Origin: a virus
Virus record (IMG/VR): IMGVR_UViG_3300043395_002316
Coordinates: 1 to 42,520 of that record
DNA: 42,520 nucleotides
Strand: one strand, 5' to 3'
Below, piece by piece: positions 31 to 41,094 of this stretch. A program made the position numbers and the translations under genes. The first letter of the stretch is position 1. Each line of letters opens with the position of its first letter. A model generated the notes under the pieces. That model saw nothing but the letters and a program-made list of their open reading frames with translations. It was not told where the DNA came from and did no database searches.

Positions 31-1230
31 TTATGATAAAATTGTTGTACGGACTTTATCAATCCATTCTGTCTTATTATCAAATTTTTTCATATATGCT
101 TTAAGTTTCATAAACTCAGCATTACGCTCATCATATGAATCTTTTAAGATTTGTTTAACACATTTATCGAACTCATTTTTAGTAGAAACTCTATATTTGT
201 AATTAAGTTCTGGTGCCCAATCAGAATTTAAAATAGGTAATTTACCATAATCTACTGCTTGAAAAATAGAATATCCAAATGGTTCTTGGAAATATGCTCC
301 GTGGAATATTCCCCAATTTTTTAACATAAATTGATGATGAATTTCAGGGTCCCATTGATAAATATCAATATCCTTTAAAGTATATGTTGTAGTATCTCTC
401 AAATTTTTAACATCATATTGTGATGTTAAAGCATATCCTTTATGACCATTCAACCAGTGTAAACATTTTCTAGTTTCAGCACGAGAAGCGAATCCAATCT
501 TACCATTATCTATATGAGATGTTAGTGGTAAATTATGTACAAATTCATAAAAGTTAGGAATTGTTACTGTATAATTTGGGAAATCTTCTAAAAGAGAAGA
601 ATGATTGTTTCCAATCCAAATTCGTTTTTTAAATGTAACTAAAAAATCTTCATAAAATTCTTCGTCTACATTAGTTTGTAATTGTAATAAATCCAATTCA
701 GGTATTTTACTCAATACATTTCTAATATCCTTTGCGTACGCATGTACAAAAATATTTTTAAATTTATCCTCATAATGCCAAATATGTGGCCTTTTGTGAT
801 AGTGAGGATGGAGTACATGAATTTCGTTACAATTTTTTAACCACTCTTCAGTTATACTTGGGTCATCTCCGTGAAAGTGATATATTAATCCTTTTGGCAA
901 TGATTCTGGTTTAAAATTTATTGGTCTTTTTGAATCTATTAATAATCTCCAAGTCTTTTTAATAGGAAGTATAGGCCAAACATATTGTAAAAAATAATTT
1001 GTCCAAATATCAGAACCACCAACAATAGTGTTACCAGCACCAGTAGTGTATAAAATTCTGTTATGTCCTTTTCTTAAATTTTCTCGAGAATATAATTTAT
1101 CATCTTCTTCTAAAAAATCATTAATAATTGATGCAATATCGTTTGTTTCAATTTCGTTAGGATATTGTTCAAAATAACCTTCCAATAATTCAATTAATTC
1201 TTTTAATTTATCACCGGTAATTATTCCCAT
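31..1230 (-). CDS. GT-B fold (GT4-like) glycosyltransferase
   Basis: This 399-residue protein looks like a glycosyltransferase of the GT-B fold that would transfer a sugar from a nucleotide donor in the cytoplasm. Seen in the sequence: an N-terminal glycine-rich segment followed by GGSDIW (residues 71-76), as in the first Rossmann domain of GT4 enzymes, and a C-terminal EPFGYSIFQAVDYGKLPI stretch starting near residue 316. The latter matches the donor-binding E-x7-E region of GT4 enzymes in position, although the second acidic residue is Asp. The first 60 residues are helical and acidic and match nothing I know. It is the last gene of the tail-fibre/modification block, 16 nt after the 2OG-oxygenase gene, so it is probably co-transcribed with it. 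The acceptor is unknown; a virion protein or the host surface polysaccharide are both possible. Family call fairly sure, substrate not. Confidence 0.72.
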   Translation of the reverse strand: MGIITGDKLKELIELLEGYFEQYPNEIETNDIASIINDFLEEDDKLYSRENLRKGHNRILYTTGAGNTIVGGSDIWTNYFLQYVWPILPIKKTWRLLIDSKRPINFKPESLPKGLIYHFHGDDPSITEEWLKNCNEIHVLHPHYHKRPHIWHYEDKFKNIFVHAYAKDIRNVLSKIPELDLLQLQTNVDEEFYEDFLVTFKKRIWIGNNHSSLLEDFPNYTVTIPNFYEFVHNLPLTSHIDNGKIGFASRAETRKCLHWLNGHKGYALTSQYDVKNLRDTTTYTLKDIDIYQWDPEIHHQFMLKNWGIFHGAYFQEPFGYSIFQAVDYGKLPILNSDWAPELNYKYRVSTKNEFDKCVKQILKDSYDERNAEFMKLKAYMKKFDNKTEWIDKVRTTILS

Positions 1231-1246
1231 AATATTTTAAACTTAT

Positions 1247-1750
1247 TTATTTTATTTCAGTATAATGTAAAAATAATTGAATAACAAATTGGTCATCTTT
1301 ACATTTTAATATATCACGCCAATGTGCAGTTGTTCTACCATCAACTAATCCAGCCAATCCCATTATTGTAGGATACCCAACTTTACCATTTTCAACATTC
1401 GAATCTTCAACCCATAATGGCCATTCATTATCTAAATTTGTAAATATACAAACTGATATTGTCCAATCCAAATCTTCTCTATCTTTATGTGATGGTAATG
1501 TAGAGTCATTATTATATATTCTAATATATGGATTTGCAGTTTTTAATTTTTTGCCAGTTTTCTCCTCAACCATTGGTAAAAATCTACCTAATAAATACCA
1601 TGTTATAGGAGTATTTCCCCCATATGAATTTTTATAAAAACTGGTATCTTTTTCTAACGCAATCGTACCCTTTTCATAAAAATGAAAAAACTCTTTCATT
1701 ATATATTCACACTCGTATTCATTTAATATTTTACCTAAATCTAAATGCAT
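1247..1750 (-). CDS. 2OG-Fe(II) dioxygenase-like protein
   Basis: A 167-residue protein with the layout of a small 2-oxoglutarate/Fe(II)-dependent dioxygenase. The candidate iron ligands are His88 and Asp90 (in SHKDRED) and distal His143 (in TTAHWRD), with basic residues Arg145 and Lys149 behind it that could bind 2-oxoglutarate. Length and double-stranded beta-helix spacing fit the family. It has no C-terminal RxxxxxR motif of AlkB repair enzymes, so base repair is less likely than hydroxylation of a protein or sugar. It starts 3 nt after the stop of the prolyl-4-hydroxylase-like gene, so the two oxygenases form a translationally close pair. The substrate cannot be read from the sequence. 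Overall similarity to known families is weak; the call rests on the metal triad. Confidence 0.6.
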   Translation of the reverse strand: MHLDLGKILNEYECEYIMKEFFHFYEKGTIALEKDTSFYKNSYGGNTPITWYLLGRFLPMVEEKTGKKLKTANPYIRIYNNDSTLPSHKDREDLDWTISVCIFTNLDNEWPLWVEDSNVENGKVGYPTIMGLAGLVDGRTTAHWRDILKCKDDQFVIQLFLHYTEIK

Positions 1751-1753
1751 ATT

Positions 1754-2308
1754 TTATCTTTTAAATTTTGATTCTCTAATCCATATAACAGCAATATATT
1801 TAACTCCTTTTGTAACTGGTAATCCTGCATGTAAACTTTCGGGGTCTACTTCATCGTTTGGAGTTACATTACTCCACATAAGTAATCTACCAATACGAGG
1901 GGTAATTTTTAATTTTTTTGTTGGAAATTCAGTTTCACCCCCCTCGAAATCATCATTTAAATAAAATAAACAACTCATTATACGCTGACCACCTAAAGCC
2001 ATATGTTGTTCGTAGTATTCTTCGGTTTTATGAAAATAATCACAATGAATTTTAAATTCACCACCAATATCATATTTTACAATATGAACTTCTTCTTGAT
2101 TTTCAATAGGATTTCCTGTCATTACCGAAATCATTTTTTTAATTTTTTCGGTTAATTCATCATGTTCTCTAATCCAACTACCATCTGCTACTCGATAACC
2201 TTCTATTTTTTTACCCAAAGTACCTGCTGGTGCTAAATTTTTTGAACCAATTTGTATTAGATGTTTACATTCATCTGGCGTAAGAACATTATCTATTATT
2301 GTAACCAT
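1754..2308 (-). CDS. Prolyl 4-hydroxylase-like 2OG-Fe(II) oxygenase
   Basis: A 184-residue protein closely resembling the catalytic domain of prolyl 4-hydroxylase alpha subunits, which hydroxylate peptidyl proline using O2, Fe(II) and 2-oxoglutarate. Visible hallmarks: the metal pair His88-x-Asp90 (IHCDYFH), a GGxR segment followed by LFYLNDDFEGGETEFP (residues 114-129), distal metal ligand His160 and the 2OG-binding Lys170 in the typical HAGxPVxxGxKY arrangement. All three metal ligands and the lysine are present, so it should be active. P4H homologues are common in T4-like marine phages, usually with unknown targets. Here the gene is one gene away from an adhesin with three Pro/Thr-rich linkers, which makes those prolines the obvious candidate substrate (inference). 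A late-type promoter motif lies 18 nt upstream, so it heads its own transcript. Confidence 0.85.
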   Translation of the reverse strand: MVTIIDNVLTPDECKHLIQIGSKNLAPAGTLGKKIEGYRVADGSWIREHDELTEKIKKMISVMTGNPIENQEEVHIVKYDIGGEFKIHCDYFHKTEEYYEQHMALGGQRIMSCLFYLNDDFEGGETEFPTKKLKITPRIGRLLMWSNVTPNDEVDPESLHAGLPVTKGVKYIAVIWIRESKFKR

Positions 2309-2326
2309 TTTTCAATTGTATTATGT

Positions 2327-2336
2327 ATATAAATAT
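2327..2336 (-). promoter_or_regulatory. Late-promoter-like decamer ATATTTATAT
   Basis: The decamer ATATTTATAT reads on the minus strand 18 nt before the start codon of the prolyl-hydroxylase gene, in the 39-nt gap after the SGNH-glycosyltransferase gene. It is one of eight exact copies in this window, all before minus-strand genes. Assignment to the gp55 sigma factor is inferred. Confidence 0.5.
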
Positions 2337-2347
2337 ATATTATTTAT

Positions 2348-3805
2348 TTATTCATATTTTTGCAACCACAATGCAACATGATTATAAAATTTATTTGATT
2401 TAAAATTCGATACATCCCAATTCGGAAAATCTTTTTTTGCAAATAATGGGTCAACTGAATAATGACAAAAATAATGTTTATCGTCATCCAATTCATTTAT
2501 GTTTGGAATATATGTATTATCTTGCGATATACATTTTATTTTGTGATTATGACAAGCTATTTGAAATCCCGCCATAGCACACCACCAACCAAAACTATCA
2601 GTCGAATCCAAATCATCAACTATTTTTTCAGAAATTACAATAACATCATTTATAATTTTTTTTAATGTTCTTACATTTATAATAATCGGAACAAATCCTC
2701 CATCCATATATGAATAATCAGTATGTTCTAAATACTTTTCAATTTTATAAAAATTACTTTTAGATGGGTCTTTAATATGCATATGCCAATCTTCATATAT
2801 ATCACAAGTTATAACTTCATTATCTTTTGGTAAAATTCCATTATAAATTTTTAATGGAACTACATCACAATCTATTATACATAAAATAGTATCATCTGAT
2901 AATGTTTCTATCATATATTTCAATGGATAAAAAACATTTATTGCAGTGTAATGTGAATGTATTTTTGTTTCATCTAAATCTTTATGTATTCCTGGTAATA
3001 ATTTAGTTTTTAATCCAATATTCCACGGGATTGACATGAAAACATTACTATGTTTATTTCTATCCACCATAACAACAATTGAATTTGTTTCTGCATTTTT
3101 TCCATATATTAGTCTTTGAAAAAATTCAAATAATGATGTTTGAAACCTAAACATTTCTGCAGGAGCAGCAATTGGAATTGTTAATATTCTATTTGCGTTG
3201 TATGTTTTTATTTTTGTGTAAATATCGTTTGCAATTAATTTATATCCAATTGTATTTGGGTGATAGTCTCCACCTAAAAATGTATCAAATTTATTTACCT
3301 TTCTAGCACCATATTCCCAACAACTTTGCTTATTTTCCATTTCCCATTTTATTAAACCATCACTAACACATCCATCTATGTTAAGAAAATTAGTAAGATT
3401 TAAATGTTGATACTCTGAATATTGCAATTGTGAGAATGTTGGAAAAAATGAATTTAAAATAAAATAATTATACCCTTCTAATTCATTTATAATGTTACCA
3501 ACATCTATGATAGGGTCACCATCCTTTCGATATGGGTATGATAACATAACAATAATTAAATCATCTTTATCTAATAAAGATTTCCATTTAACTATATCTT
3601 CATAAATTTCATTATTTGATTTATTACAAAATGCTAAATTTACAAATGGTATATCAAATTTATTAGCCAAAAATCTCGGCCAACCATTCATTAAACGTAA
3701 ATAATCTATAAATAAATTTGGTGATATAACCTCCTTATATTGTATATCGTGCTCAACACCATGTCCTGCAGTCCAACTATCACCAAATGTAACTAATCTC
3801 TTCAT
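2348..3805 (-). CDS. SGNH/GDSL hydrolase fused to DxD glycosyltransferase-like domain
   Basis: A 485-residue two-domain protein. Residues 1 to about 200 are an SGNH hydrolase: block I is FGDSWTAG with nucleophile Ser10, and block V gives the Asp180/His182 pair (GGDYHPNTIGY). Such enzymes add or remove acyl groups on sugars. Residues from about 205 to the end look like a GT-A-type glycosyltransferase: a hydrophobic strand ends in IIDCDVVPL with Asp312-x-Asp314 as the metal/nucleotide motif, followed by YMDGGFVPIIIN near residue 367, as in many DxD enzymes. The fusion suggests one polypeptide that both glycosylates and (de)acylates the same acceptor. It sits between the proline-rich adhesin gene (12 nt upstream) and the prolyl-hydroxylase gene. 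No signal peptide is visible, so it acts in the cytoplasm. Both domain calls rest on motifs; the substrate is unknown. Confidence 0.7.
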   Translation of the reverse strand: MKRLVTFGDSWTAGHGVEHDIQYKEVISPNLFIDYLRLMNGWPRFLANKFDIPFVNLAFCNKSNNEIYEDIVKWKSLLDKDDLIIVMLSYPYRKDGDPIIDVGNIINELEGYNYFILNSFFPTFSQLQYSEYQHLNLTNFLNIDGCVSDGLIKWEMENKQSCWEYGARKVNKFDTFLGGDYHPNTIGYKLIANDIYTKIKTYNANRILTIPIAAPAEMFRFQTSLFEFFQRLIYGKNAETNSIVVMVDRNKHSNVFMSIPWNIGLKTKLLPGIHKDLDETKIHSHYTAINVFYPLKYMIETLSDDTILCIIDCDVVPLKIYNGILPKDNEVITCDIYEDWHMHIKDPSKSNFYKIEKYLEHTDYSYMDGGFVPIIINVRTLKKIINDVIVISEKIVDDLDSTDSFGWWCAMAGFQIACHNHKIKCISQDNTYIPNINELDDDKHYFCHYSVDPLFAKKDFPNWDVSNFKSNKFYNHVALWLQKYE

Positions 3806-3816
3806 TTAACTATTTT

Positions 3817-5097
3817 TTAAAGAGTATTACAAACTCCACCAGCAAAAAATTGACCACCACTAAAATATCCATAAGTTACACCATCAGAGAATATACCACT
3901 ATCATTAAACGGAGACCCATCAAAATTATAATAATATCTACCACTTATCAATTGAGACCATTGGTTTGAATATACAGTACCCCAAAAACTACCATATTGT
4001 GCATTAGTACATGCACTACCATCACTACCTGGGTCACCCATAGCAATTGCTATGTTATAATTCCAACTAGCAGGAGGTGGAGTATAATCCGGTGTAGGTG
4101 TAGGTGGTACATAATCTGGCGTAGGTGGTACATAATCCGGCGTAGGTGTAGGTGCGGTATAACAATATATTTCACCAGTACCTTTTGATAATCCAGCACC
4201 TGTATCTGTATTATAAACATACACATTATATCCACCCGCATTATTAGCTACACCTGTAAATGTATAGTAATTATATCCGCCGGTTGATGTAGTTGCGTAA
4301 CTAGATGGTGGACCACTTTGAATACTATATCCAACTTTATAATTTGATGAATTACCACCTGCAATATTTGTAATAATAATTCTACCACCACCATCATATC
4401 CGCCACCACCACAATCAATAGAAACATCAAATGTTATTGGGGCTATATACGTTGGCGTAGGCACCGTTGGTGTAGGTACTGCAGGTGGATAATAAGTTGG
4501 GGTAGTCGGTGGTGTATAGGTTGGAACTATTGGAGTTGGTGTGACTGTACAAACTGCACATGCTGCAGTAGGTGATGCACTTATAGTTCCTTGCCCATCT
4601 CTTCTAAATCTACGAGTATAACGAGTTCCATTACCATCTGTCCAAGCAGCATAAAATGGTGAAGTATCACCCAAATCATTAGTCACTACAAATGGTAAAT
4701 CTAATATTTTTGTAGCATCACATAAGGTAGTTCCATACACCGTAACCGTAATATTACCATAATCTCCACCATCACAAGCACTTTGTGCATCTGATGCAGC
4801 TATTGAAATAATTATTTGTGTTTCCGGTGTTGTAGGAGTTGGAGCAGTAGGTGGATAATATGTTGGAGTTGTTGGAACTTCGGGCGTATATATTGGTGTA
4901 TATGTTGGTACTACCGGAGTGGGAGTTGGTGTACCACTATATCCATAAAATTCTGACATTACATCTGGTATATCAAATTTAACAAGACCCGTTGCAGCTT
5001 TAGCAATAACATTGTACTGCCTCAATGAATTTGAAGTAGTACTCAACGCAGCTTTAATATCTGACATTTTTATAGGGCCTGAAGTTGGTAATGGCAT
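3817..5097 (-). CDS. Proline/threonine-rich modular tail adhesin
   Basis: A 426-residue structural protein that is probably part of the tail fibre tip. Residues 1-55 match the short phage tail module starting LPTSGPIKMSDI and ending in EFYGYSG, a module frequent in T4-like marine phage tail proteins. Three globular modules follow, each preceded by a Pro/Thr linker (residues 56-92, 186-220 and 314-343, each with 13 prolines). Modules one and three share an SAC...YG...TVY pattern and carry Cys pairs, resembling Cys/Tyr-rich modules seen in flavobacterial phage tails. The linker DNA is itself repetitive, for example around 4080-4160. Its start overlaps the stop of the giant fibre gene by one base (TAATG), so the two are translationally coupled and probably assemble together. 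The linkers are plausible targets of the neighbouring prolyl hydroxylase and glycosyltransferases (inference). Confidence 0.7.
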   Translation of the reverse strand: MPLPTSGPIKMSDIKAALSTTSNSLRQYNVIAKAATGLVKFDIPDVMSEFYGYSGTPTPTPVVPTYTPIYTPEVPTTPTYYPPTAPTPTTPETQIIISIAASDAQSACDGGDYGNITVTVYGTTLCDATKILDLPFVVTNDLGDTSPFYAAWTDGNGTRYTRRFRRDGQGTISASPTAACAVCTVTPTPIVPTYTPPTTPTYYPPAVPTPTVPTPTYIAPITFDVSIDCGGGGYDGGGRIIITNIAGGNSSNYKVGYSIQSGPPSSYATTSTGGYNYYTFTGVANNAGGYNVYVYNTDTGAGLSKGTGEIYCYTAPTPTPDYVPPTPDYVPPTPTPDYTPPPASWNYNIAIAMGDPGSDGSACTNAQYGSFWGTVYSNQWSQLISGRYYYNFDGSPFNDSGIFSDGVTYGYFSGGQFFAGGVCNTL

Positions 5098-8000
5098 TAT
5101 TTATTCCTTTTTAATTCCTCAATTTCCGATTTTAATTCTTTTATACTCTCAATAAGAAGTGCAACAATTTTATCATATTTAACTGCTTTATATCCATTAT
5201 CACGAGTAGCTACCAATTGTGGTAATACTTGTTCAACTTCTTGTGCTATTACACCAACATCATTACCTTTATTTGTATGTATATCTTCATAACCCTCTTT
5301 CCAATCATAAGTATATCCATTCAATAAAGATACTTTTTCAAGGGGATTTTGAATTCTTAACAAATTATCTTTTAATCTTAAATCGGATGAAGTATTTGCA
5401 GTAACATCGCCGGTTACCGTCAATCCACCACCGATTTTTACAAAATCAGTCTCATTTGCACGCTTTACTTCCAAATATTTAGAAGTATCATAGACAACTT
5501 GAAAACCACCTGCACACAATTCAGTTTTTGATACTGGGACTGATGCTGCAATTGAACTCAATAATGGTGTTCTCATATAAACACCAAAATCGGCAGGACC
5601 TGGTAAATTAGGTGCACTTAATATAGCAGCAGCATATATATCTTTTAATACCGGTTTTATGTAATATGTTCCAGCTTCTAATGTTACAGTTGTACTTAAT
5701 GTAAATGTGCCATAAGATGCATTCATCGTATATGTGCCGATTTGATGTAAAGTATTTACATATGAGTCTGGTTGAATTACATATTGGGTACCTGATGGTG
5801 TAATTAATCTAAATCCATATGAATAAGACCACTCCATTCGTTCCAAATATTTACCATGAATATCATCACCCGATGCAAAAAATTGATTACTACCGCCCGA
5901 TACTATTGCAGAAATTGTACAAGTTGAACCTATTAATGCATTTCCACTACTAATTGTAAAATTAGCTTCATCTACACCTAAATTTATATTAGAATTGGTA
6001 TATGAATATGTAGTACCCGAATGATTATCATACCATTCATAATTTGCAGGAACATTATAGTTGACAATATTAGTTTGTGAAGGGGTGATACTTCCGGCAG
6101 ATTTATCCGATAGTGTAGTATTTGCATTTACATCAACCACAACCGATGTACCATTATATAATTCCATTGCGGGCCTTGCAGCAGCCAATTGTAATTTTTT
6201 AGTACCAACCGATGCATATAAATTTGAACCATTTAAAACCCAATCACCAATAAATCCTTCCGTTGCAGTAATACGACCGGAAACATCCACATTAGCTGCG
6301 GTTAATTTTCCGTTCGAATTAATATTTGAATAAGTTGCACCACTTCCAATCGTTAAACTGCCACCGGTTAAAGTTAAATTTGTAGCAATAACTGCACCAG
6401 CAGGTGTTACTCTAAATGGAGCATCGGCAAAAGTTGCATTCCCCAAGTAAAGTCCGTTTGAATCTGCTTTAAAAATACTATTACCACTACCTATGGAAAT
6501 AATGCCAGCACTATTTAATACAGCACTACCACCGGTTAATGTTGTTGGCCCTAAAGTCCATCCACCAATTGTACCGGTTGCTGCTGAAATATCTCCTGCA
6601 AATGAACCTCCTGCTGCATTTAAATTACCACTAAAAGTACCACTACCATTAATTGTAAGATTTGAACCATCCCACAATAAAGAATTTGTTGCACTTTTTA
6701 AAGATAATTTATATTTTGTACCACCGTCATTTACTGAGCCTATAAAGATACCATTTACATTATATCCCTGTGAACCGACACTTGAACTTTGACCAATTGA
6801 AATATATGGATAAGCAGTTCCACCATTTAATGTTATATTAGCAGATGACACTCCACCATTATTATTTGTACCAACATTTAAAGTATTTTGTACATATGAG
6901 TCCTGAAATAAACCAATTTTAGCTGCTACAAAGAAATCCTGTGTACCTAACGATGTCCAAGCAGTAGATGATGGTTGTGATGGTGAACCATCTGCAGTAT
7001 TTGTTGCTACTGATGTATGAGAACGAGTAGCAGCATAATAAGTATCATATGGGGCAGTACCTGTCGAACTCCATAAAACTACATCTCGTCTACCAGTACC
7101 ATCTAACAATCCATCAGAGTATTGATATGCTCGACCCGATTGCCAAACTCCAGTATGAACAACACCAGGACCAGTTACACCATCTAATGTTACACTTATA
7201 ACATGACTTTGTGCAATTGCAGATGAAGTTATTCCTGCTGAAGTTTTATATTCAACATTAAATGTTATTGTTTCACCTGCCGTAGATGTTGGTGTTTTTG
7301 GTGTTATTGTACCATTATTATTATTTGTACTTCCAGCAGAAACACCTGAAATTTTAAATGTACTATTTGATGCAAGTGTAGATGAATATGTATAGGCATT
7401 CCCATTTTCAGTTACCGAAATGGTAATATTAGATGGTGATGCGTAAACTCCAGCAGTACTGCGTTTTATAGTTTGTGAGGATGGATTTAGTGTTATCACA
7501 ACTCCATTAGCACCATTCGTACCATTCGTACCATTCGTGCCATTCGTGCCATTCGTACCATTCGTGCCATTTTGTCCAACACTAACTTTTGTTGCAGTTA
7601 CAACAATAGTTTTTGTTTGTCCACCAGTACCCTCACTATCAGTATGTGTAATAATTAAAGATGCAGATGCTTCAGATTTTGTAGAATCTATAACCGAACC
7701 TGTCATATTTAATTGATTTCCAGTTATAGTTGGATTTGTAGAAAATCCACCATATGTACCAGACATGGATGTAAATCTATTCGTACTACCTTCCAATGCA
7801 GTGACAATCACATTACTTAATGTACCACTTTGTACACCAGATGAATTTGCAGTTACTGATTGCGCCTGTGGGGTTGCCGAAACAACAATAGTTGGAGTTG
7901 CTTTTTTAGCTTTTGTATAAGTTACAACTTTTGTTATATCGGTTGTATCACCTGCACCATCTTTATATCGTACCAATAATGATAACGAACCACTATCTGC

Positions 8001-10598
8001 ATCTAATCGTGTAATACCATAAGTTGCATCATCCGGTGTTGTATCATTTGCAATACAATTTGTTTCTGTTGCTGAAATGATATCCCATCTATTATTTGTA
8101 GTTAATCCTTCTTGTCTACTGATATCCTCACCACCAACTTTTACACTTACCGAACCACTTGTCAACACAAATGAACCACTCTCAACAAATCCAGTTGATT
8201 TAGCAGGAAGAGTTGCGTTTTCATTAGTAAGAGTTACTGATAATCCATCTAATATTTTGATTGGTGTAACTTTGATACTATCGGTATATTCAATACCATA
8301 ATCATCCGATGATGTAAAATGATATGTTGCAGAACCACTTAAATAATCAAATGATGAACCTGCAAGTGTATATGTAGAAACTCCAGTTGTAGGGTCAGTA
8401 TTTACAAATGTTAAACTTGCAGCAGTACCAACTTCACTTTCGGAATTTATAGTTATATTAGGGTTTAATGTACCTAAATTTTTTCGTTTAACATCAAAAG
8501 TTATTGATTGATTCGATGGATTAATTGATAAATTTGTAGCTTTATAAATAAATTGATTAGCAGTTGAAGATACAAATATACCTGGAGCATTATCACCATC
8601 TTCTAATCTATAAATTGTTTCATATTCTACTAAACCATCTGCAGATGCAGTATAAGTAATAAATCCAACTCTAAATAAATTAGATGTTTCGGTATCCAAT
8701 GAACCACTAAATTCATCAATTTGAACAACAAATCCATTATTAGATGAATCATGCGGTGCACCTGGATATTCAACACCACCCAATGCTAAATAATCAGCTT
8801 CACTTATGTAACTACCTGTTATATCATAAACCGAACGACCATATGTTATATCACCAACAATATTTTGACGAGTGGTTGAAAATCCGATTTGTTGAAAATG
8901 TGGATTTGCATGAGAGCCGGTAATAAATCTGAATGCGTTTCTATCAGATTGTATTGTTAAAATTTTAGTTGATGTTGGGTAATCATTACCACCATCAAAT
9001 GTAGCAGTTGAAAATACATCTACCGGAATATAATTGTTATTTATATCATAAAATTCAAATTTGAAATCAAATGTTTCAGTATTAATTTTACGCGGTATAT
9101 CTTGTATTAATACAAATTCATCAGGCGAAAATGAAGTTTCTTGTGCATTTTTTAAAGATACATTTGAAATATACCAATCAGAGCCACTTATATCAAATAC
9201 CAACTTTGCGTTAGAAGATGAAATTGGATTGGCAATTATATTTTGAGAAACTGTTTGACGAGTTTTGTAAATATCAGAACCACTAACAGTCAAAAATGTT
9301 TGTTGATAATCAGATGAACTTAAATACGCTTTTATGTATTCTGACCCATTTATTGAACCACTTAATAAGGTTTTAAATTCTAATGTGTATTCTACATCTT
9401 TTGAAATAACAAATGATTCCGATGTAATTAATTGCTGAATTCCACCCAAAGATGTATTATAATCAGTTTTTATTGAAGATTGTAGTATATCCACATTTAC
9501 CGAAACTGGATGTGCATCCGATGATGTTATCCAATAAGTTGATAAATTTGAATCAGTAAAATTACCATACGAAATTTGAGTATCGTTTGAAACGGTAACA
9601 TCTCTTAACAATTCAGTAGATTCTAATTTTGATTCTTGTACAAATTGATAATCGGTTACCTCATTACGAGATTTACGAAATACTTTTACTCTAGCAACAT
9701 CCCCAACGAATGTTTTAAGATTTGAAATATCAATTTTTGCAAACGAACCGGTAAGTGCAGAATCAGACACTGTCTGACCTTCAGTCCATTCAAATGATGT
9801 AGTGTATGGTGTTGATGGAAAATTTTGTACAATATTATTAACCGAATATGGTATATCAACTAAAACCTCTTTATTGTTCAATACCTCTTTTACAACCGGA
9901 GAATATCCAAGTGATGGAATTGTTATGGTATTATCATCTACCGAACCTGTCCAAAAAGAACCATCGGTTATTTTCAATTTATAAACCGTTCCTGCAGTCC
10001 AATTGGTAAGATTAGAACCCACTGCAGGTTGAAGAGCAATACCCTCTACCGAACCACTTTGAGTTACCGATGGGATAACCTTTGAAAATATGGGTTTAAC
10101 CAATTCTGATATGGAAACCGATGGTCTTCTATAAAAACGAACAGAATCCTCATTAGAGAGGTTTCTGTTGATTTTAAAGGTTCTTTCCCACTTAACATTA
10201 TAAACACCCTTCCAAACCTCTGGAACGGGTAAACGAGTACCATTTTTATCTATATACTCTTTTAACTCCCCCAATACCGTAATTTTACCGATTCCGATGG
10301 GAGTATCTGGATATACATGAACTGATATAAGAGTTGAAAGACCTTCATAATATTCCGGCGTACCATTACCCGGTTCGAAATATATTGGATTACCATCGAC
10401 ATCTAAAATTTCGATTTTTACTTCAGTTGTTTCTTTTAAAAAGTCAGAACCCTCAATTAAGAACCCATTTTTACCTCCGGTGAATGTTTCCTTAAATTCG
10501 GTGATTCTAAAAAAATCCGAATTAGGATTCGTATCAACTATAAAAGTTTGATAATTTGAAAGATTTAAAAATGGTGAGTATGATTTGATTATTGCCAT
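5097..10598 (-). CDS. Giant tail fibre with C-terminal S74 chaperone
   Basis: An 1833-residue long tail fibre or tailspike. The last roughly 100 residues are an intramolecular chaperone of the peptidase S74 family: SSDLRLKDNL carries the Ser-Lys catalytic pair, followed by GVIAQEVEQVLPQLV, the KAVKYDKIVALLIE segment and a C-terminal coiled coil. In this family the domain trimerises the fibre and then cuts itself off. Around residues 1007-1033 lies a short collagen-like Gly-Thr-Asn repeat. Much of the rest is Ser/Thr/Gly-rich beta structure with Ig-like repeats (roughly 600-1000) and TGxSLxIxSG-type beta-helix segments (roughly 1250-1500). The N-terminal ~150 residues probably attach to the baseplate. 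A clear AGGAG ribosome site precedes the ATG by 7 nt, with a late-promoter-like decamer further upstream. It heads the fibre operon. Fibre identity is secure; the receptor is unknown. Confidence 0.88.
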   Translation of the reverse strand: MAIIKSYSPFLNLSNYQTFIVDTNPNSDFFRITEFKETFTGGKNGFLIEGSDFLKETTEVKIEILDVDGNPIYFEPGNGTPEYYEGLSTLISVHVYPDTPIGIGKITVLGELKEYIDKNGTRLPVPEVWKGVYNVKWERTFKINRNLSNEDSVRFYRRPSVSISELVKPIFSKVIPSVTQSGSVEGIALQPAVGSNLTNWTAGTVYKLKITDGSFWTGSVDDNTITIPSLGYSPVVKEVLNNKEVLVDIPYSVNNIVQNFPSTPYTTSFEWTEGQTVSDSALTGSFAKIDISNLKTFVGDVARVKVFRKSRNEVTDYQFVQESKLESTELLRDVTVSNDTQISYGNFTDSNLSTYWITSSDAHPVSVNVDILQSSIKTDYNTSLGGIQQLITSESFVISKDVEYTLEFKTLLSGSINGSEYIKAYLSSSDYQQTFLTVSGSDIYKTRQTVSQNIIANPISSSNAKLVFDISGSDWYISNVSLKNAQETSFSPDEFVLIQDIPRKINTETFDFKFEFYDINNNYIPVDVFSTATFDGGNDYPTSTKILTIQSDRNAFRFITGSHANPHFQQIGFSTTRQNIVGDITYGRSVYDITGSYISEADYLALGGVEYPGAPHDSSNNGFVVQIDEFSGSLDTETSNLFRVGFITYTASADGLVEYETIYRLEDGDNAPGIFVSSTANQFIYKATNLSINPSNQSITFDVKRKNLGTLNPNITINSESEVGTAASLTFVNTDPTTGVSTYTLAGSSFDYLSGSATYHFTSSDDYGIEYTDSIKVTPIKILDGLSVTLTNENATLPAKSTGFVESGSFVLTSGSVSVKVGGEDISRQEGLTTNNRWDIISATETNCIANDTTPDDATYGITRLDADSGSLSLLVRYKDGAGDTTDITKVVTYTKAKKATPTIVVSATPQAQSVTANSSGVQSGTLSNVIVTALEGSTNRFTSMSGTYGGFSTNPTITGNQLNMTGSVIDSTKSEASASLIITHTDSEGTGGQTKTIVVTATKVSVGQNGTNGTNGTNGTNGTNGTNGANGVVITLNPSSQTIKRSTAGVYASPSNITISVTENGNAYTYSSTLASNSTFKISGVSAGSTNNNNGTITPKTPTSTAGETITFNVEYKTSAGITSSAIAQSHVISVTLDGVTGPGVVHTGVWQSGRAYQYSDGLLDGTGRRDVVLWSSTGTAPYDTYYAATRSHTSVATNTADGSPSQPSSTAWTSLGTQDFFVAAKIGLFQDSYVQNTLNVGTNNNGGVSSANITLNGGTAYPYISIGQSSSVGSQGYNVNGIFIGSVNDGGTKYKLSLKSATNSLLWDGSNLTINGSGTFSGNLNAAGGSFAGDISAATGTIGGWTLGPTTLTGGSAVLNSAGIISIGSGNSIFKADSNGLYLGNATFADAPFRVTPAGAVIATNLTLTGGSLTIGSGATYSNINSNGKLTAANVDVSGRITATEGFIGDWVLNGSNLYASVGTKKLQLAAARPAMELYNGTSVVVDVNANTTLSDKSAGSITPSQTNIVNYNVPANYEWYDNHSGTTYSYTNSNINLGVDEANFTISSGNALIGSTCTISAIVSGGSNQFFASGDDIHGKYLERMEWSYSYGFRLITPSGTQYVIQPDSYVNTLHQIGTYTMNASYGTFTLSTTVTLEAGTYYIKPVLKDIYAAAILSAPNLPGPADFGVYMRTPLLSSIAASVPVSKTELCAGGFQVVYDTSKYLEVKRANETDFVKIGGGLTVTGDVTANTSSDLRLKDNLLRIQNPLEKVSLLNGYTYDWKEGYEDIHTNKGNDVGVIAQEVEQVLPQLVATRDNGYKAVKYDKIVALLIESIKELKSEIEELKRNK
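7512..7574. repeat. 9-bp tandem repeat encoding a collagen-like Gly-Thr-Asn tract
   Basis: Six nearly identical 9-bp units (accattcgt or gccattcgt on the plus strand) run from 7512 to 7565, with a degenerate seventh unit. Read on the minus strand they encode Gly-Thr-Asn triplets in the tail fibre. The period is a multiple of three, so gain or loss of units would keep the frame and change only fibre length. Confidence 0.85.
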
Positions 10599-16153: not shown

Positions 16154-16600
16154 TTATTCGGAGATTTCCAAATCTTTTCTGAAAAACTTACCTAATAAGT
16201 TATCATTTAATGCTCTATCATCTGCTAATACATTATGAGCAAATTGTTCCTGCAATTCGTAATATGTAAGTGATTTTGTAGATGAACAAAATCGTAAGAT
16301 TCGTAATTCTAATTGGTCGTTATCGGAATCCTTAAACCAATCTTGTACTATTTTATTTGATGAACGATATGTTTTCCAATCCGATTCTTTTGTTATCATC
16401 TCATATCGTTTCATTCGTTTATCGGTTAAAGCAGCAATTTCTTTTTTACCAAAATTTCGCTTTCTAATTGATGCAACATTTTTCTTTCCGATATAATATT
16501 GACCAGTTTTTCCGTTTGTAATTTTATAAATAAATCCAATAGTGCCTTCTGGCATATCTGATAATTCTGTAATGTAACTTCCGTTATATATCCAACTCAT
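16154..16600 (-). CDS. GIY-YIG endonuclease (SegE-like)
   Basis: A GIY-YIG nuclease-domain protein of about 148 residues. Counted from the second Met (16600), it begins MSWIYNG and then shows GFIYKITNG...YYIGKKN, the paired GIY and YIG strands of the fold, followed by basic residues, an SDWKTYRSSN segment, and a conserved ELQEQFAHNVL helix that would hold the catalytic Glu. The domain organisation matches the SegE-like homing nucleases of T4-related phages. A longer form starting at 16621 is open. I prefer 16600 because family members usually begin close to the WIYNG strand and this reduces overlap with the sulfotransferase gene to 17 nt. Neither start has a strong ribosome site. It could be a free-standing homing enzyme or a repair/recombination nuclease. 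Confidence 0.75.
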   Translation of the reverse strand: MSWIYNGSYITELSDMPEGTIGFIYKITNGKTGQYYIGKKNVASIRKRNFGKKEIAALTDKRMKRYEMITKESDWKTYRSSNKIVQDWFKDSDNDQLELRILRFCSSTKSLTYYELQEQFAHNVLADDRALNDNLLGKFFRKDLEISE

Positions 16601-17156
16601 AGTTAAAAATTTTGAAATCATTTTGATATTTTTCTCTAACCCAGTCTTTCATCCAATCTTCATTATAATATTGTTTATATAATTTGTGAGTGTTTAAATT
16701 TGGATGTTTTTCCCACATTTTATTTCGATTTAAATGCGGTATTCGATTTTCTTTTATTTCAATTTTATTTAAAATATAATTTAAATCGTAATTAAGATTT
16801 TCGTATTTACCAACATATGAAATTTTTTTAGTTGGTGTATTTCCGTGATTTATATAATATTCTTGTGAAAAAAATAAAAAATCTAATGGGTCAATTGATT
16901 TTATGAAATTTGAAAATAAATTTGCTTTACCTTCTCGTTTTCTATGTTCAAACCAAGAAGCTAAACGGGTATATGGATTTCTAACAAATGTAAATATAAA
17001 ATATCCATCTACATTTTTTAATTCATTAAGTGTACCATGAGTAGTTATTTGTTCTGTCTCCGGTACACTTAATAAAATTTGAGATATTGAATTACCCGCG
17101 GTTTTGGGTATATGAATGTAAGCCCATTTATTTGGACGGTTAATGAGTAACCCCAC
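16584..17156 (-). CDS. Sulfotransferase (Sulfotransfer_2-like)
   Basis: A 190-residue cytosolic sulfotransferase-like enzyme that would move sulfate from PAPS to a carbohydrate or tyrosine. The 5'-phosphosulfate loop is IPKTAGNSI with Lys18; a His-Gly-Thr segment follows at residue 40; and the 3'-phosphate site is FVRNPYTRLAS with Arg59 and Ser67. The C-terminus ends in the family-typical Asp-Phe-x-x-Phe-x-Tyr. There is no transmembrane anchor, unlike eukaryotic Golgi members. It lies 12 nt after a small unknown gene and overlaps the GIY-YIG gene. Together with several glycosyltransferases in this window it suggests sulfated glycans on the virion or the host surface, though the acceptor is unknown. 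Confidence 0.82.
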   Translation of the reverse strand: MGLLINRPNKWAYIHIPKTAGNSISQILLSVPETEQITTHGTLNELKNVDGYFIFTFVRNPYTRLASWFEHRKREGKANLFSNFIKSIDPLDFLFFSQEYYINHGNTPTKKISYVGKYENLNYDLNYILNKIEIKENRIPHLNRNKMWEKHPNLNTHKLYKQYYNEDWMKDWVREKYQNDFKIFNYELDI

Positions 17157-25334: not shown

Positions 25335-25640
25335 TTATAAATAATTGTGAACATATGGACTACTAGTGTCTCCATTACCATACCCACCACCACCATATGA
25401 TGAGCCACCACCTCCACCAGTTGAACCACCTGTTGGCGATACAATTTCGGATTTTATGATGTATGATTCGTTTGATGTTGCATTTGCACTTCTGACAGTT
25501 ATGGTTTTTGGTGATAATAATTCACTTTCCAAATATTGAAGAGTATGCGGTGTGGTATTCATAGTGTTGACACCATCAATATAGATTGAACCACCTTGTG
25601 GAGTGGAATTAACAGTAAATGTTATAGTTCTATTCGCCAT
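25335..25640 (-). CDS. Small PEGA-like virion protein with Gly-rich tail
   Basis: A 101-residue protein. Residues 1-65 read like a PEGA domain: NSTPQGGSIYIDGV...TPHTLQY, the compact beta fold usually found in bacterial surface proteins. The C-terminal 35 residues are a Gly/Ser/Tyr tail (several GGGG runs) ending in SPYVHNYL. The same kind of Gly-Ser-Tyr tail ends the 495-residue tail protein two genes upstream, so the two may share a docking mode. It lies 17 nt before the giant LamG protein gene. A near-match of the late decamer precedes it. No signal peptide is seen. Confidence 0.6.
   Translation of the reverse strand: MANRTITFTVNSTPQGGSIYIDGVNTMNTTPHTLQYLESELLSPKTITVRSANATSNESYIIKSEIVSPTGGSTGGGGGSSYGGGGYGNGDTSSPYVHNYL
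25336..25343 (-). promoter_or_regulatory. Core late-promoter-like octamer TATTTATA
   Basis: TATTTATA reads on the minus strand 18 nt before the TTG start of the giant tail gene, overlapping the last codons of the PEGA-like gene. It matches only the eight-base core of the decamer, so support is weaker than for the other copies. Confidence 0.3.
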
Positions 25641-25666: not shown

Positions 25667-26494
25667 TTATGGAAACAAAATTGGTTTTATTAATTCATCT
25701 TTTACCAAAGAATCATAAACATCTCTTATTGTTCCACCTTCTTCTTTATGTTTATTTGTTATTAATCTTATACAATCCCATTTATCAATATTTTTAAATT
25801 TATCGTTTCCCTGCCAATGATAATATGAATTTTCATTTTCTAATACCTCAAATTCCAATCCATAATATTCAACTATTCTTTGTAAAAGATGTTCACATAA
25901 ATAATGGGATATTAATGATTTATTTGAATTTAATTCTTCATTTTTTTCAATTAATATCGTTTCATTTTCCAAAAACCATTTTTTGAGTTTTTTATATGAC
26001 TCTACATAATATTGTAATAATCCATTATTTCCTTTCATTCTAACTAATCCGGTTGAAAAGGAAATACCAGTTTTAGAATTCCATTCTGGTATTTGTTTAG
26101 TAATATCAAATGTATTTAATATATCCAAACAATCTTTTGAATAACCATTTTGTTGTTTTTTTACAATCGTATCTACCCACACAAATGAGTTTGGATTTTT
26201 AAAAACTAATGGTGAATGTAAAAATACATCACCATCCAAAATTAAATAATCATCAATTCTATTTTCCCAAATATAAACTTTTAAATCATCATATAATGCG
26301 TAATCAATATGATTTGTAGTAAAAGTTTCATCCACATATTCACCCAATCTTTCAATAGCATCAGATGACCCATATAAAACCGTTGTGTAACCTAAATCTT
26401 TTGCCATTTGAATTGATACATAAAACATATCATAAACAAATGGAGAATGTAACTGATTTAAACCTTTTTGCTGTAACGCCCAAATTAATTTCAT
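25667..26494 (-). CDS. DxD (GT-A type) glycosyltransferase-like protein
   Basis: A 275-residue protein resembling bacterial glycosyltransferases of the DUF6734 type, which occur mainly in Bacteroidota. A hydrophobic strand leads into Asp87-Gly-Asp89 (DDYLILDGDVFLHSP), the metal/UDP-sugar motif of GT-A enzymes. An SFSTGLVRM segment with a small-residue turn follows, and a C-terminal HWQGNDK region could close the active site. There is no signal peptide or membrane helix. It lies 4 nt after a tail protein gene and 26 nt before the PEGA-like gene, inside the baseplate operon, so it should be made with the tail parts and may modify one of them. The family name is from memory and needs a search. 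Confidence 0.62.
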   Translation of the reverse strand: MKLIWALQQKGLNQLHSPFVYDMFYVSIQMAKDLGYTTVLYGSSDAIERLGEYVDETFTTNHIDYALYDDLKVYIWENRIDDYLILDGDVFLHSPLVFKNPNSFVWVDTIVKKQQNGYSKDCLDILNTFDITKQIPEWNSKTGISFSTGLVRMKGNNGLLQYYVESYKKLKKWFLENETILIEKNEELNSNKSLISHYLCEHLLQRIVEYYGLEFEVLENENSYYHWQGNDKFKNIDKWDCIRLITNKHKEEGGTIRDVYDSLVKDELIKPILFP

Positions 26495-39378: not shown

Positions 39379-41094
39379 TTATTTTATTTTTTTCTTAATA
39401 ATATAGTTGTGTATTACTAATGTATCCATTTCGCAATTTAAAAATGTTTGAATTGCAGTTTCGGGGTCTAATACCATTGTTTGGTCTTTTAGATTAAATG
39501 AAGTATTCAACACAATTGGATATCCATTATCAATTTGTAATTGATTTAATAATTTATAGATACGAGTATGTTGTCTATTATTAAGAGTTTGAATACGAGC
39601 AGAACCATCAACATGAGTAATAGCAGGTAAATTTTTTCTATGCTCTTCTTTAACCTTAACAACTTGATTCATATATGGTACAAGATGTTTGTAATCAAAA
39701 TATTTTAGTCGTTCTTCTTCTTTTACAATTGGAGCAAAAGGTCTAAATCCTTCTCGTTTTTTAATTACACGATTTACCCTTGCTTTCATTTGAGGGTCTC
39801 TTGGGTTAGCAAGAATAGAACGATTGCCCAATGCTCGAGAACCAAATTCCATTCTTCCCTCAAACCAACCAATGACATTTCCATCAGTAATTTCTCTACT
39901 GATAATTGGAATAATTTCAGAGTGATTTTTATACTCATACCAAACATCATTTTTGTATTTTTCTAAAATTTGTATTACTTCGTCATTTGAATATGAAGGA
40001 CCTAAATATGGATTGGTATTTGTAATTCGTTTTTTATTATTTAATTCATTATACCAATAATATAATCCGGCACCGATTGCAGAACCTGCATCAGATGGTG
40101 CGGGAGGAATCCACAATCCTTTAAATGGAGTTAAATCAGTAATCTTCCCATTTGCAGTTCCATTATATGCACATCCACCACTTAAACATAGATTATTAGC
40201 AGGTCTTAATGCAATTGCACGATTTAATAACCTAAAGAAATATTTTTCATATATTATTTGAACTGTTGCTGCTAAATCTTTATGTTCTTGAGTTAATTCA
40301 TCTTCTGGTAATCTATTTAAAAGTTCTAAATGTGCACCCAATTTTACATTAAACATCATCTCATCTGACCAATCAAAGTCAAACATTTCCATATTCAACT
40401 CGAATCCACCATCTTCGATAGGTTGAATAATATCATCAAACTTTTTTAAATAAGTATATGGATTACCATATGGTGCAAGACCCATTACTTTATATTCACC
40501 TTCATTCGGTTTGAATCCTAAAAACGCAGTAAATGCAGAATAAAACATTCCCAACGAATGTGGAAAATCAATTGTTTGTAATTTTATAATACGATTTTCT
40601 TCACCATATGCAATAACGGCAGATTCCCATTCACCAACCCCATCAACAGAAACAATCATTGCTCTTTCGTAAGGAGATGTGTAATAAGAATATGCTAAAT
40701 GTGAAAGGTGATGTTCTGAATAAAATATGTTTGAATTTGGAAACATATTTTTAATTTCCGATTCTACATTTTTATAATCTTTTTTATTTCTATGTAGAAT
40801 TTGTTGTCTATGAATTTCTCTAAAAATTCCACCTCTTTTAGTTGATTGTGAAATTCTATCTAATTTAACTGCAGGGTTTTCATAAAAACAAACGGTATCG
40901 ATATTATCTGCCGTAATACCATTTTCTTCCAATAACCAATTTATAGTATTGATTGGAAATGCAGAATCGTGTTTAACGCCAGTAAAGCGTTCTTCTTCTA
41001 CGGCACCAATTACTTCACCATTTTTAATTAAAGCTGCTGCAGAATCATGATATCCACAGCTAATTCCTAATATATAACAATTTTTATTCATCAT
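39379..41094 (-). CDS. Carbamoyltransferase (NodU/CmcH family)
   Basis: A 571-residue full-length member of the O-carbamoyltransferase family (NodU, CmcH, TobZ), which activates carbamoyl phosphate with ATP and transfers the carbamoyl group to a hydroxyl. The N-terminal YrdC/Kae1-like part opens ILGISCGYHDSAAAL and has the metal site HHLSH near residue 130. Further motifs are SVDGVGEW, LCLSGGCAYNGTANG and DAGSAIGAG. The C-terminal domain contains EGRMEFGSRALGNRSIL and KKREGFRPFAPIV. All look intact. Phage members are thought to carbamoylate modified bases or sugars; no base-modification partner lies within this window. The gene overlaps gp55 by 11 nt and ends in a terminator. Substrates could be a hydroxymethylated base or virion glycans. 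Confidence 0.93.
   Translation of the reverse strand: MMNKNCYILGISCGYHDSAAALIKNGEVIGAVEEERFTGVKHDSAFPINTINWLLEENGITADNIDTVCFYENPAVKLDRISQSTKRGGIFREIHRQQILHRNKKDYKNVESEIKNMFPNSNIFYSEHHLSHLAYSYYTSPYERAMIVSVDGVGEWESAVIAYGEENRIIKLQTIDFPHSLGMFYSAFTAFLGFKPNEGEYKVMGLAPYGNPYTYLKKFDDIIQPIEDGGFELNMEMFDFDWSDEMMFNVKLGAHLELLNRLPEDELTQEHKDLAATVQIIYEKYFFRLLNRAIALRPANNLCLSGGCAYNGTANGKITDLTPFKGLWIPPAPSDAGSAIGAGLYYWYNELNNKKRITNTNPYLGPSYSNDEVIQILEKYKNDVWYEYKNHSEIIPIISREITDGNVIGWFEGRMEFGSRALGNRSILANPRDPQMKARVNRVIKKREGFRPFAPIVKEEERLKYFDYKHLVPYMNQVVKVKEEHRKNLPAITHVDGSARIQTLNNRQHTRIYKLLNQLQIDNGYPIVLNTSFNLKDQTMVLDPETAIQTFLNCEMDTLVIHNYIIKKKIK

Follow-up and report, generated by a model that had tools for sequence, protein, structure and literature searches.

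The 42,520-nucleotide stretch analyzed here (the window; positions 1 to 42,520 of the IMG/VR virus record IMGVR_UViG_3300043395_002316) is part of a T4-like myovirus genome and carries baseplate, fibre and gp46/47-type genes. The genes located at 1247-5097 on its minus strand probably constitute a substrate-plus-enzymes cassette: as predicted from their sequences, proline-rich linkers of a tail adhesin would be hydroxylated, and the resulting hydroxyproline (Hyp) O-glycosylated. The minus-strand gene order is giant tail fibre, Pro/Thr-rich adhesin, a fusion of an SGNH domain with a glycosyltransferase (GT), prolyl 4-hydroxylase (P4H), a second 2-oxoglutarate (2OG)-Fe(II) oxygenase (OG2) and a putative GT. 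This run is closely packed, with successive intergenic gaps of -1, 11, 39, 3 and 16 bases, and all of the genes lie where a first-pass annotation had placed them. The fibre gene (5097-10598, minus strand) encodes a protein of 1833 amino acids (aa) with a C-terminal S74 endosialidase chaperone, and its stop codon overlaps the start of the adhesin gene by 1 base.

Proline-rich linkers of the tail adhesin

The adhesin (3817-5097, minus strand; 426 aa), the proposed substrate, contains 50 prolines, only 13 of which fall within the 326 residues outside the linkers. Three Pro/Thr linkers with 13 prolines each had been described previously; the three linkers were found, and with the boundaries that we chose they contain 12, 12 and 13 prolines, respectively (residues 58-92, 186-218 and 315-344; 4822-4926, 4444-4542 and 4066-4155, minus strand). 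The linkers are of the TP/PP/YPP type, with threonine about as frequent as proline. No Ser-Pro3-5 extensin repeats were found in them and, as Ser-Pro4 repeats are missing, the earlier term “extensin-like” does not apply in its strict sense.

The densest 40-residue stretch of the adhesin holds 13 prolines, while the other minus-strand open reading frames (ORFs) of the window reach at most 7. At the mean proline content of the window, the binomial probability of one such 13-proline stretch is 1.3e-9, and the proline-rich proteins of related phages are denser still (mostly 16-32 prolines per 40 residues). The proline density of the linkers, being far above the norm of the window and even more extreme in relatives, is therefore not attributable to chance. 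The N-terminal domain of the adhesin is shared with linker-free homologues found at the equivalent place in relatives.

The giant fibre does carry the Gly-Thr-Asn tract that was noticed earlier and called collagen-like, in the form (GTN)6-GAN from residue 1011. This tract is proline-free, which does not agree with a Gly-X-Y collagen repeat with proline, and its match to the Pfam Collagen profile is below the cut-off.

Enzymes encoded by the cassette

The solved structures nearest to the predicted P4H (1754-2308, minus strand; 184 aa) are the P4Hs of Bacillus anthracis (7e-29) and Chlamydomonas (4e-22). The metal- and 2OG-binding residues, H88-x-D90...H160...K170, are all present, as first proposed, and are invariant across an eight-sequence alignment. 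This combination of sequence relation, H-x-D...H motif and 2OG-binding lysine is that of a collagen-type P4H, so hydroxylation of peptidyl proline at C4 is predicted. Among Pfam profiles only 2OG-FeII_Oxy_3 and 2OG-FeII_Oxy matched this protein, and Tet_JBP did not.

OG2 (1247-1750, minus strand; 167 aa) has no Pfam match. Its motif H88-x-D90...H143-W-R145 is conserved among relatives, and its confident model (pLDDT 95) shows a double-stranded beta-helix whose fold neighbours include Pseudomonas putida P4H, PHD2 and a PBCV-1 hydroxylase, which substantiates its annotation as a second 2OG oxygenase. P4H and OG2 are joined into a single protein in loci L005, L006 and L193, and in reversed order in L197 and L199 (L numbers denote the P4H, HPAT or gp46/47 loci compared); further fusions were also seen.

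The 485-aa fusion protein consists of an SGNH/GDSL hydrolase-like domain (residues 1-205; 3191-3805, minus strand), whose match to Lipase_GDSL_2 (E=0.0011) is below the family cut-off, and a C-terminal GT domain (residues 206-485 plus stop; 2348-3190, minus strand). HPAT is the plant hydroxyproline O-arabinosyltransferase family (GT95). The C-terminal domain passes the curated threshold of the Pfam HPAT profile (PF23452; E=5.5e-7, 29.7 bits vs 23.9), and its D-x-D motif (at about 2864-2872) is invariant among aligned relatives. We propose that it is a hydroxyproline O-glycosyltransferase. HPAT scores over the cut-off were also obtained for six phage relatives (L003, L127, L164, L165, L197 and L205; 24.7-47 bits), the strongest being 47 bits over positions 73-257 of 307 and 46.5 bits over 7-249 of 307, with E-values of 3e-12 in L127, 4e-12 in L164 (7-249 of 307) and 6e-10 in L165. 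The window protein is indeed a fusion of an SGNH domain and a GT; L127 and L165 have a gene of its own for each half. The HPAT gene of L164 lies about 4 kb from a gene whose 1068-aa product has GPQ repeats resembling those of collagen.

When viral contigs were scanned with the full fusion as a single protein no match was obtained, and the relatives were recovered with an alignment of the domain. The annotated phage collection gave no match to the HPAT fusion, the adhesin or the L164 HPAT, and thus no cultured phage carrying the cassette was found. No match to the HPAT profile was obtained for a further putative GT that the window encodes (25667-26494).

Linked occurrence of the oxygenase and the linkers

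The first-pass annotation had called for a survey of whether P4H and proline-rich adhesin genes occur together. As the anchor we used gp46/47, located upstream of the fibre and chosen to avoid selecting for P4H, and fourteen loci were extended. Among 31 gp46/47 loci with enough sequence, an oxygenase gene followed the fibre in all four loci with a proline-rich protein vs 1 of the 27 without one (p=1.6e-4). The exception is L088, where the adhesin has no linkers and the neighbouring 2OG enzyme is of a different kind. In L083 and L086 (83% gp46/47 identity), the nearest of the relatives with linker-free adhesins and the clearest contrast, the adhesin has the same N-terminal domain and is linker-free, HPAT, P4H and OG2 are absent, and the GT gene comes next. 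Proline-rich neighbours also appear in several separate branches of the P4H tree (a quick tree with some long branches).

The first-pass annotation had named as a refutation that P4H homologues be equally frequent in relatives without proline-rich adhesins. This refutation applies to the P4H superfamily as a whole but not to this lineage, where P4H and the adhesin are linked. An example is the complete phage Mel-JY01, which among cultured isolates matches best in the baseplate gene and in P4H alike: its whole genome contains P4H and no comparable adhesin, HPAT or GT60, its sole proline-dense ORF over the threshold being a chitinase-annotated protein (12 prolines per 40). Likewise, the P4H genes of Erwinia phage Y3 and Salmonella phage Sen-NF have no proline-rich neighbour, and in five records (364 kb) of a P4H sister clade proline-rich proteins were found in one only. 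P4H is widespread in phages without proline-rich adhesins, so by itself it does not predict the pathway.

Composition of the cassette in related phages

The nearest P4Hs from viral contigs (L002-L006, 55-79% identity) are all encoded 3′ of a giant fibre and a proline-rich protein (16-32 prolines per 40 residues). Between the proline-rich gene and P4H there is HPAT in L002 and L003, GT60 plus GT2 in L004 and L005, and nothing in L006. In L127/L166 and L165 a single run encodes a proline-rich adhesin, a P4H that carries a second oxygenase domain, SGNH, HPAT, GT60 and the GT that also ends the run in the window. In L197 (3541-5531) and L205 (3424-5414), which belong to a different phage type, an OG2-P4H fusion followed by HPAT comes directly after a portal-like gene. 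Overall, HPAT lies at most two genes from P4H in 7 of 8 phage contigs (two of them near-identical), representing three genomic contexts.

The GT60 profile (PF11397) was matched over its cut-off in L004, L005, L127, L165, L211 and the bacterial locus L218, with E-values down to 1e-37. GT60 stands in place of HPAT in some relatives and alongside it in others, and in L004, L005, L211, L127 and L165 it is encoded together with P4H. In the lineage of the window no GT60 match was found, either in the closest relative, whose record is 287 kb long, or in those proteins of the window that were scanned. One GT60 enzyme, Gnt1, transfers GlcNAc onto a hydroxyproline of Skp1 (PMC6939170). In L211 a proline-rich protein with weak Hint/intein-like matches (6556-7260) adjoins a GT60-Gly_transf_sug fusion.

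Two further loci, L125 (19055-20716) and L187 (8079-9630), encode pure poly-proline (PPPP) linkers with a distinct 2OG oxygenase, and no HPAT or GT60 was seen there. This pairing suggests that the set of enzymes is matched to the type of linker.

Bacterial counterparts

Around bacterial relatives of P4H, proline-rich ORFs made up 12 of 232 within 1.5 kb vs 0 of 581 beyond (p=2.4e-7); these are not independent observations, because Sphingomonas-type loci that are related to one another contribute nine of the twelve. In Pseudoalteromonas rubra and two related genomes (L218:4806-9081 in P. rubra; also L321 and L322) a GT60 gene is followed by one encoding a 934-aa GT2-PqqD-P4H fusion, and a gene for a proline-rich (PPPPP) protein adjoins them on the opposite strand. 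PqqD-type domains bind peptide substrates in other systems, so the fusion is consistent with peptide modification. Of 61 Pseudoalteromonas genomes sampled, 3 contain GT60. No bacterial HPAT was detected in genome contigs or in 299 genomes of the phylum of P. rubra, in a search that was silent everywhere, so that absence is not shown by it.

It is conceivable, at rather less than even odds, that Hyp-O-glycosylation of polyproline linkers is a general modification of prokaryotic adhesins, occurring in phages (through P4H with HPAT, GT60 or both) and in bacteria such as Pseudoalteromonas and perhaps Sphingomonas, and that the HPAT pathway of plants and the GT60 pathway of amoebae thus have counterparts in prokaryotes or viruses. 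In Sphingomonas (L215, L235, L245, L259, L286 and others) P4H is convergent with a gene for a large filamentous-haemagglutinin-like protein, which in L235 contains long PAPAPA repeats.

Proposed mechanism and alternative explanations

The genes, catalytic residues, profile families, fusions and linked inheritance observed above led us to the following model, in which the linkers as substrate, Hyp rather than Thr or Ser as acceptor, the sugar used and the benefit to the phage are what we infer. P4H, probably assisted by OG2, would hydroxylate the Pro/Thr linkers of the adhesin in the host cytoplasm, and the HPAT-like domain would O-glycosylate the new Hyp before or during tail assembly. The globular domains of the adhesin would thereby be separated by rigid polyproline-II spacers coated with sugar, which may protect the linkers and hold the binding domains off the fibre. 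Since this order of events was first suggested, it has gained an HPAT-like GT, GT60 in relatives and linked gain and loss; the case for it is still a genomic one.

Several observations weigh against this model. The HPAT match of the window is modest and spans only about 136-247 of 307 profile positions, and the AlphaFold model of the domain is poor (pLDDT 65) and counts for little by itself, although its best PDB matches, with a TM-score of about 0.4, are mostly GT-A enzymes. The survey has four positives, of which L125 and L145 use a more distant oxygenase, so it represents few independent events, and the threshold for proline-rich proteins was set by us. HPAT occurs without P4H on the record of L164 (10001-18115), and P4H without HPAT or GT60 in view in L006 and L193. 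P4Hs away from proline-rich genes, i.e. those of the sister clade (about 50% identity) in other phages, the cyanophage oxygenases and that of Mel-JY01, also count here. Two further parts of the earlier proposal are unsupported: the fibre tract as a hydroxylation substrate, since it has no proline, and the GT gene at 31-1230 as a member of the pathway, since in relatives that lack P4H it also comes immediately behind the adhesin or fibre gene.

The strongest alternative, which we regard as unlikely, is that P4H hydroxylates the linkers only to stiffen the polyproline helix, and that the targets of the GTs are Thr or Ser residues of the adhesin, the fibre or glycans of the host. Threonine is nearly as abundant as proline in the linkers, and the acceptor may indeed be Thr or Ser, because GT95, the family of HPAT, has a relative in GT96, a family of serine galactosyltransferases (PMC8012813), and GT60 also includes a Trypanosoma cruzi polypeptide GlcNAc transferase that uses Thr (PMC6939170). 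The poly-proline linkers with an oxygenase in L125 and L187, where neither HPAT nor GT60 was seen adjoining, and the TP-rich linkers that accompany P4H in L006 and L193, also fit stiffening alone. However, this explanation does not account for the recurrence beside P4H of two unrelated GT families with members using peptidyl-Hyp, or for how closely HPAT tracks P4H.

It is improbable that P4H, OG2 or both modify a host protein or another phage protein, the adhesin being a chance neighbour. The P4H of P. putida modifies EF-Tu, and this enzyme is, together with PHD enzymes, among the fold neighbours of OG2; P4H without a proline-rich neighbour is, moreover, common in phages. However, a chance neighbour would not explain why gain and loss are linked to the linkers, or why P4H is associated with proline-rich genes in several separate P4H branches, both phage and bacterial.

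Very little probability was given to decoration of another virion or surface component, with linkers and enzymes kept together only because a single adhesin module carries both in horizontal transfer. Recombination is frequent in tail adhesin regions, which would favour such co-transfer, and no proline-rich gene is in view beside the OG2-P4H-HPAT genes that follow the portal-like gene in L197 and L205 (an observation that also counts against linker hydroxylation and glycosylation). However, co-transfer leaves unexplained the presence of P4H beside proline-rich genes in distant bacteria and its fusions with OG2 and with GT2. Hypermodification of DNA bases by oxidation and subsequent sugar addition is the least credible explanation: DNA-glycosylating phage GTs are known (work cited in PMC12619734), but the oxygenase is by sequence a collagen-type P4H with no TET/JBP match, and the genes lie in a tail operon and track a protein repeat, so this candidate was rejected on enzyme-family grounds.

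Comparison with known systems

Modification of the linkers by hydroxylation and glycosylation is best read as working like the Skp1 pathway, by analogy, with parts resembling the modification of plant hydroxyproline-rich glycoproteins. In the Skp1 pathway of Dictyostelium and Toxoplasma (PhyA and Gnt1, GT60; PMC6939170) a soluble P4H likewise acts first and a cytosolic GT then modifies Hyp, and five of the phage relatives pair P4H with this GT family. Unlike the single proline of Skp1, the proposed phage substrate is a set of virion-protein repeats, and the window has HPAT with no GT60 seen. The Hyp O-arabinosylation of plants and green algae (P4H and HPAT, GT95; PMC8012813) is matched by a Chlamydomonas-related P4H, a GT over the HPAT cut-off and a proposed proline-rich repeat acceptor; the phage, in contrast, has no secretory pathway and no Ser-Pro4 repeats, and its HPAT is joined to an SGNH domain.

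The B. anthracis P4H/BclA collagen system (PMC8968730) provides the closest solved P4H by sequence, but no Hyp glycosylation is described there and the proposed substrate is collagen-like rather than a polyproline linker. The collagen hydroxylysine glycosylation of mimivirus (L230/R699; PMC9546862) also involves a viral hydroxylase followed by a GT acting on a viral repeat protein, but it concerns lysine, collagen and a virus of eukaryotes. Glycosylated mycobacteriophage virions (Freeman et al. 2023, cited in PMC12619734) share virion-protein glycans and phage-encoded GTs; they differ in having no hydroxylation step and in being glycosylated at capsid and tail-tube C-termini.

No paper on Hyp-glycosylation in phages was found in the open-access literature searched, and one paper states that the viral use of P4H “remains cryptic”. 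For a viral P4H, the locus offers a specific candidate substrate as well as an enzyme partner, which makes the question testable in Escherichia coli; confirmation would explain the role of at least some viral prolyl hydroxylases.

Documented cases of Hyp-O-glycosylation come from plants, algae and the protist Skp1 pathway. If the proposed mechanism is correct, this modification would extend to viruses of bacteria, the phage system would be the second virus-encoded one, after that of mimivirus collagen, in which hydroxylation is followed by glycosylation, and its soluble enzymes could serve for making Hyp-glycosylated peptides.

Other genes of the window

The putative GT gene that ends the run (31-1230, minus strand) had been annotated as a GT-B enzyme of the same pathway. 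No informative Pfam or NCBIfam match supports the GT-B assignment. The presence of this gene in relatives without the P4H cassette indicates that it is not specific to the cassette and probably serves a separate function of the lineage.

Elsewhere in the window, the region 39379-41094 encodes a carbamoyltransferase, here in a tailed phage, with both Pfam halves matched (E about 1e-65). A sulfotransferase (Sulfotransfer_2, 2e-14) is encoded at 16584-17156, and a small protein encoded at 25335-25640 has a borderline match to the PEGA domain.
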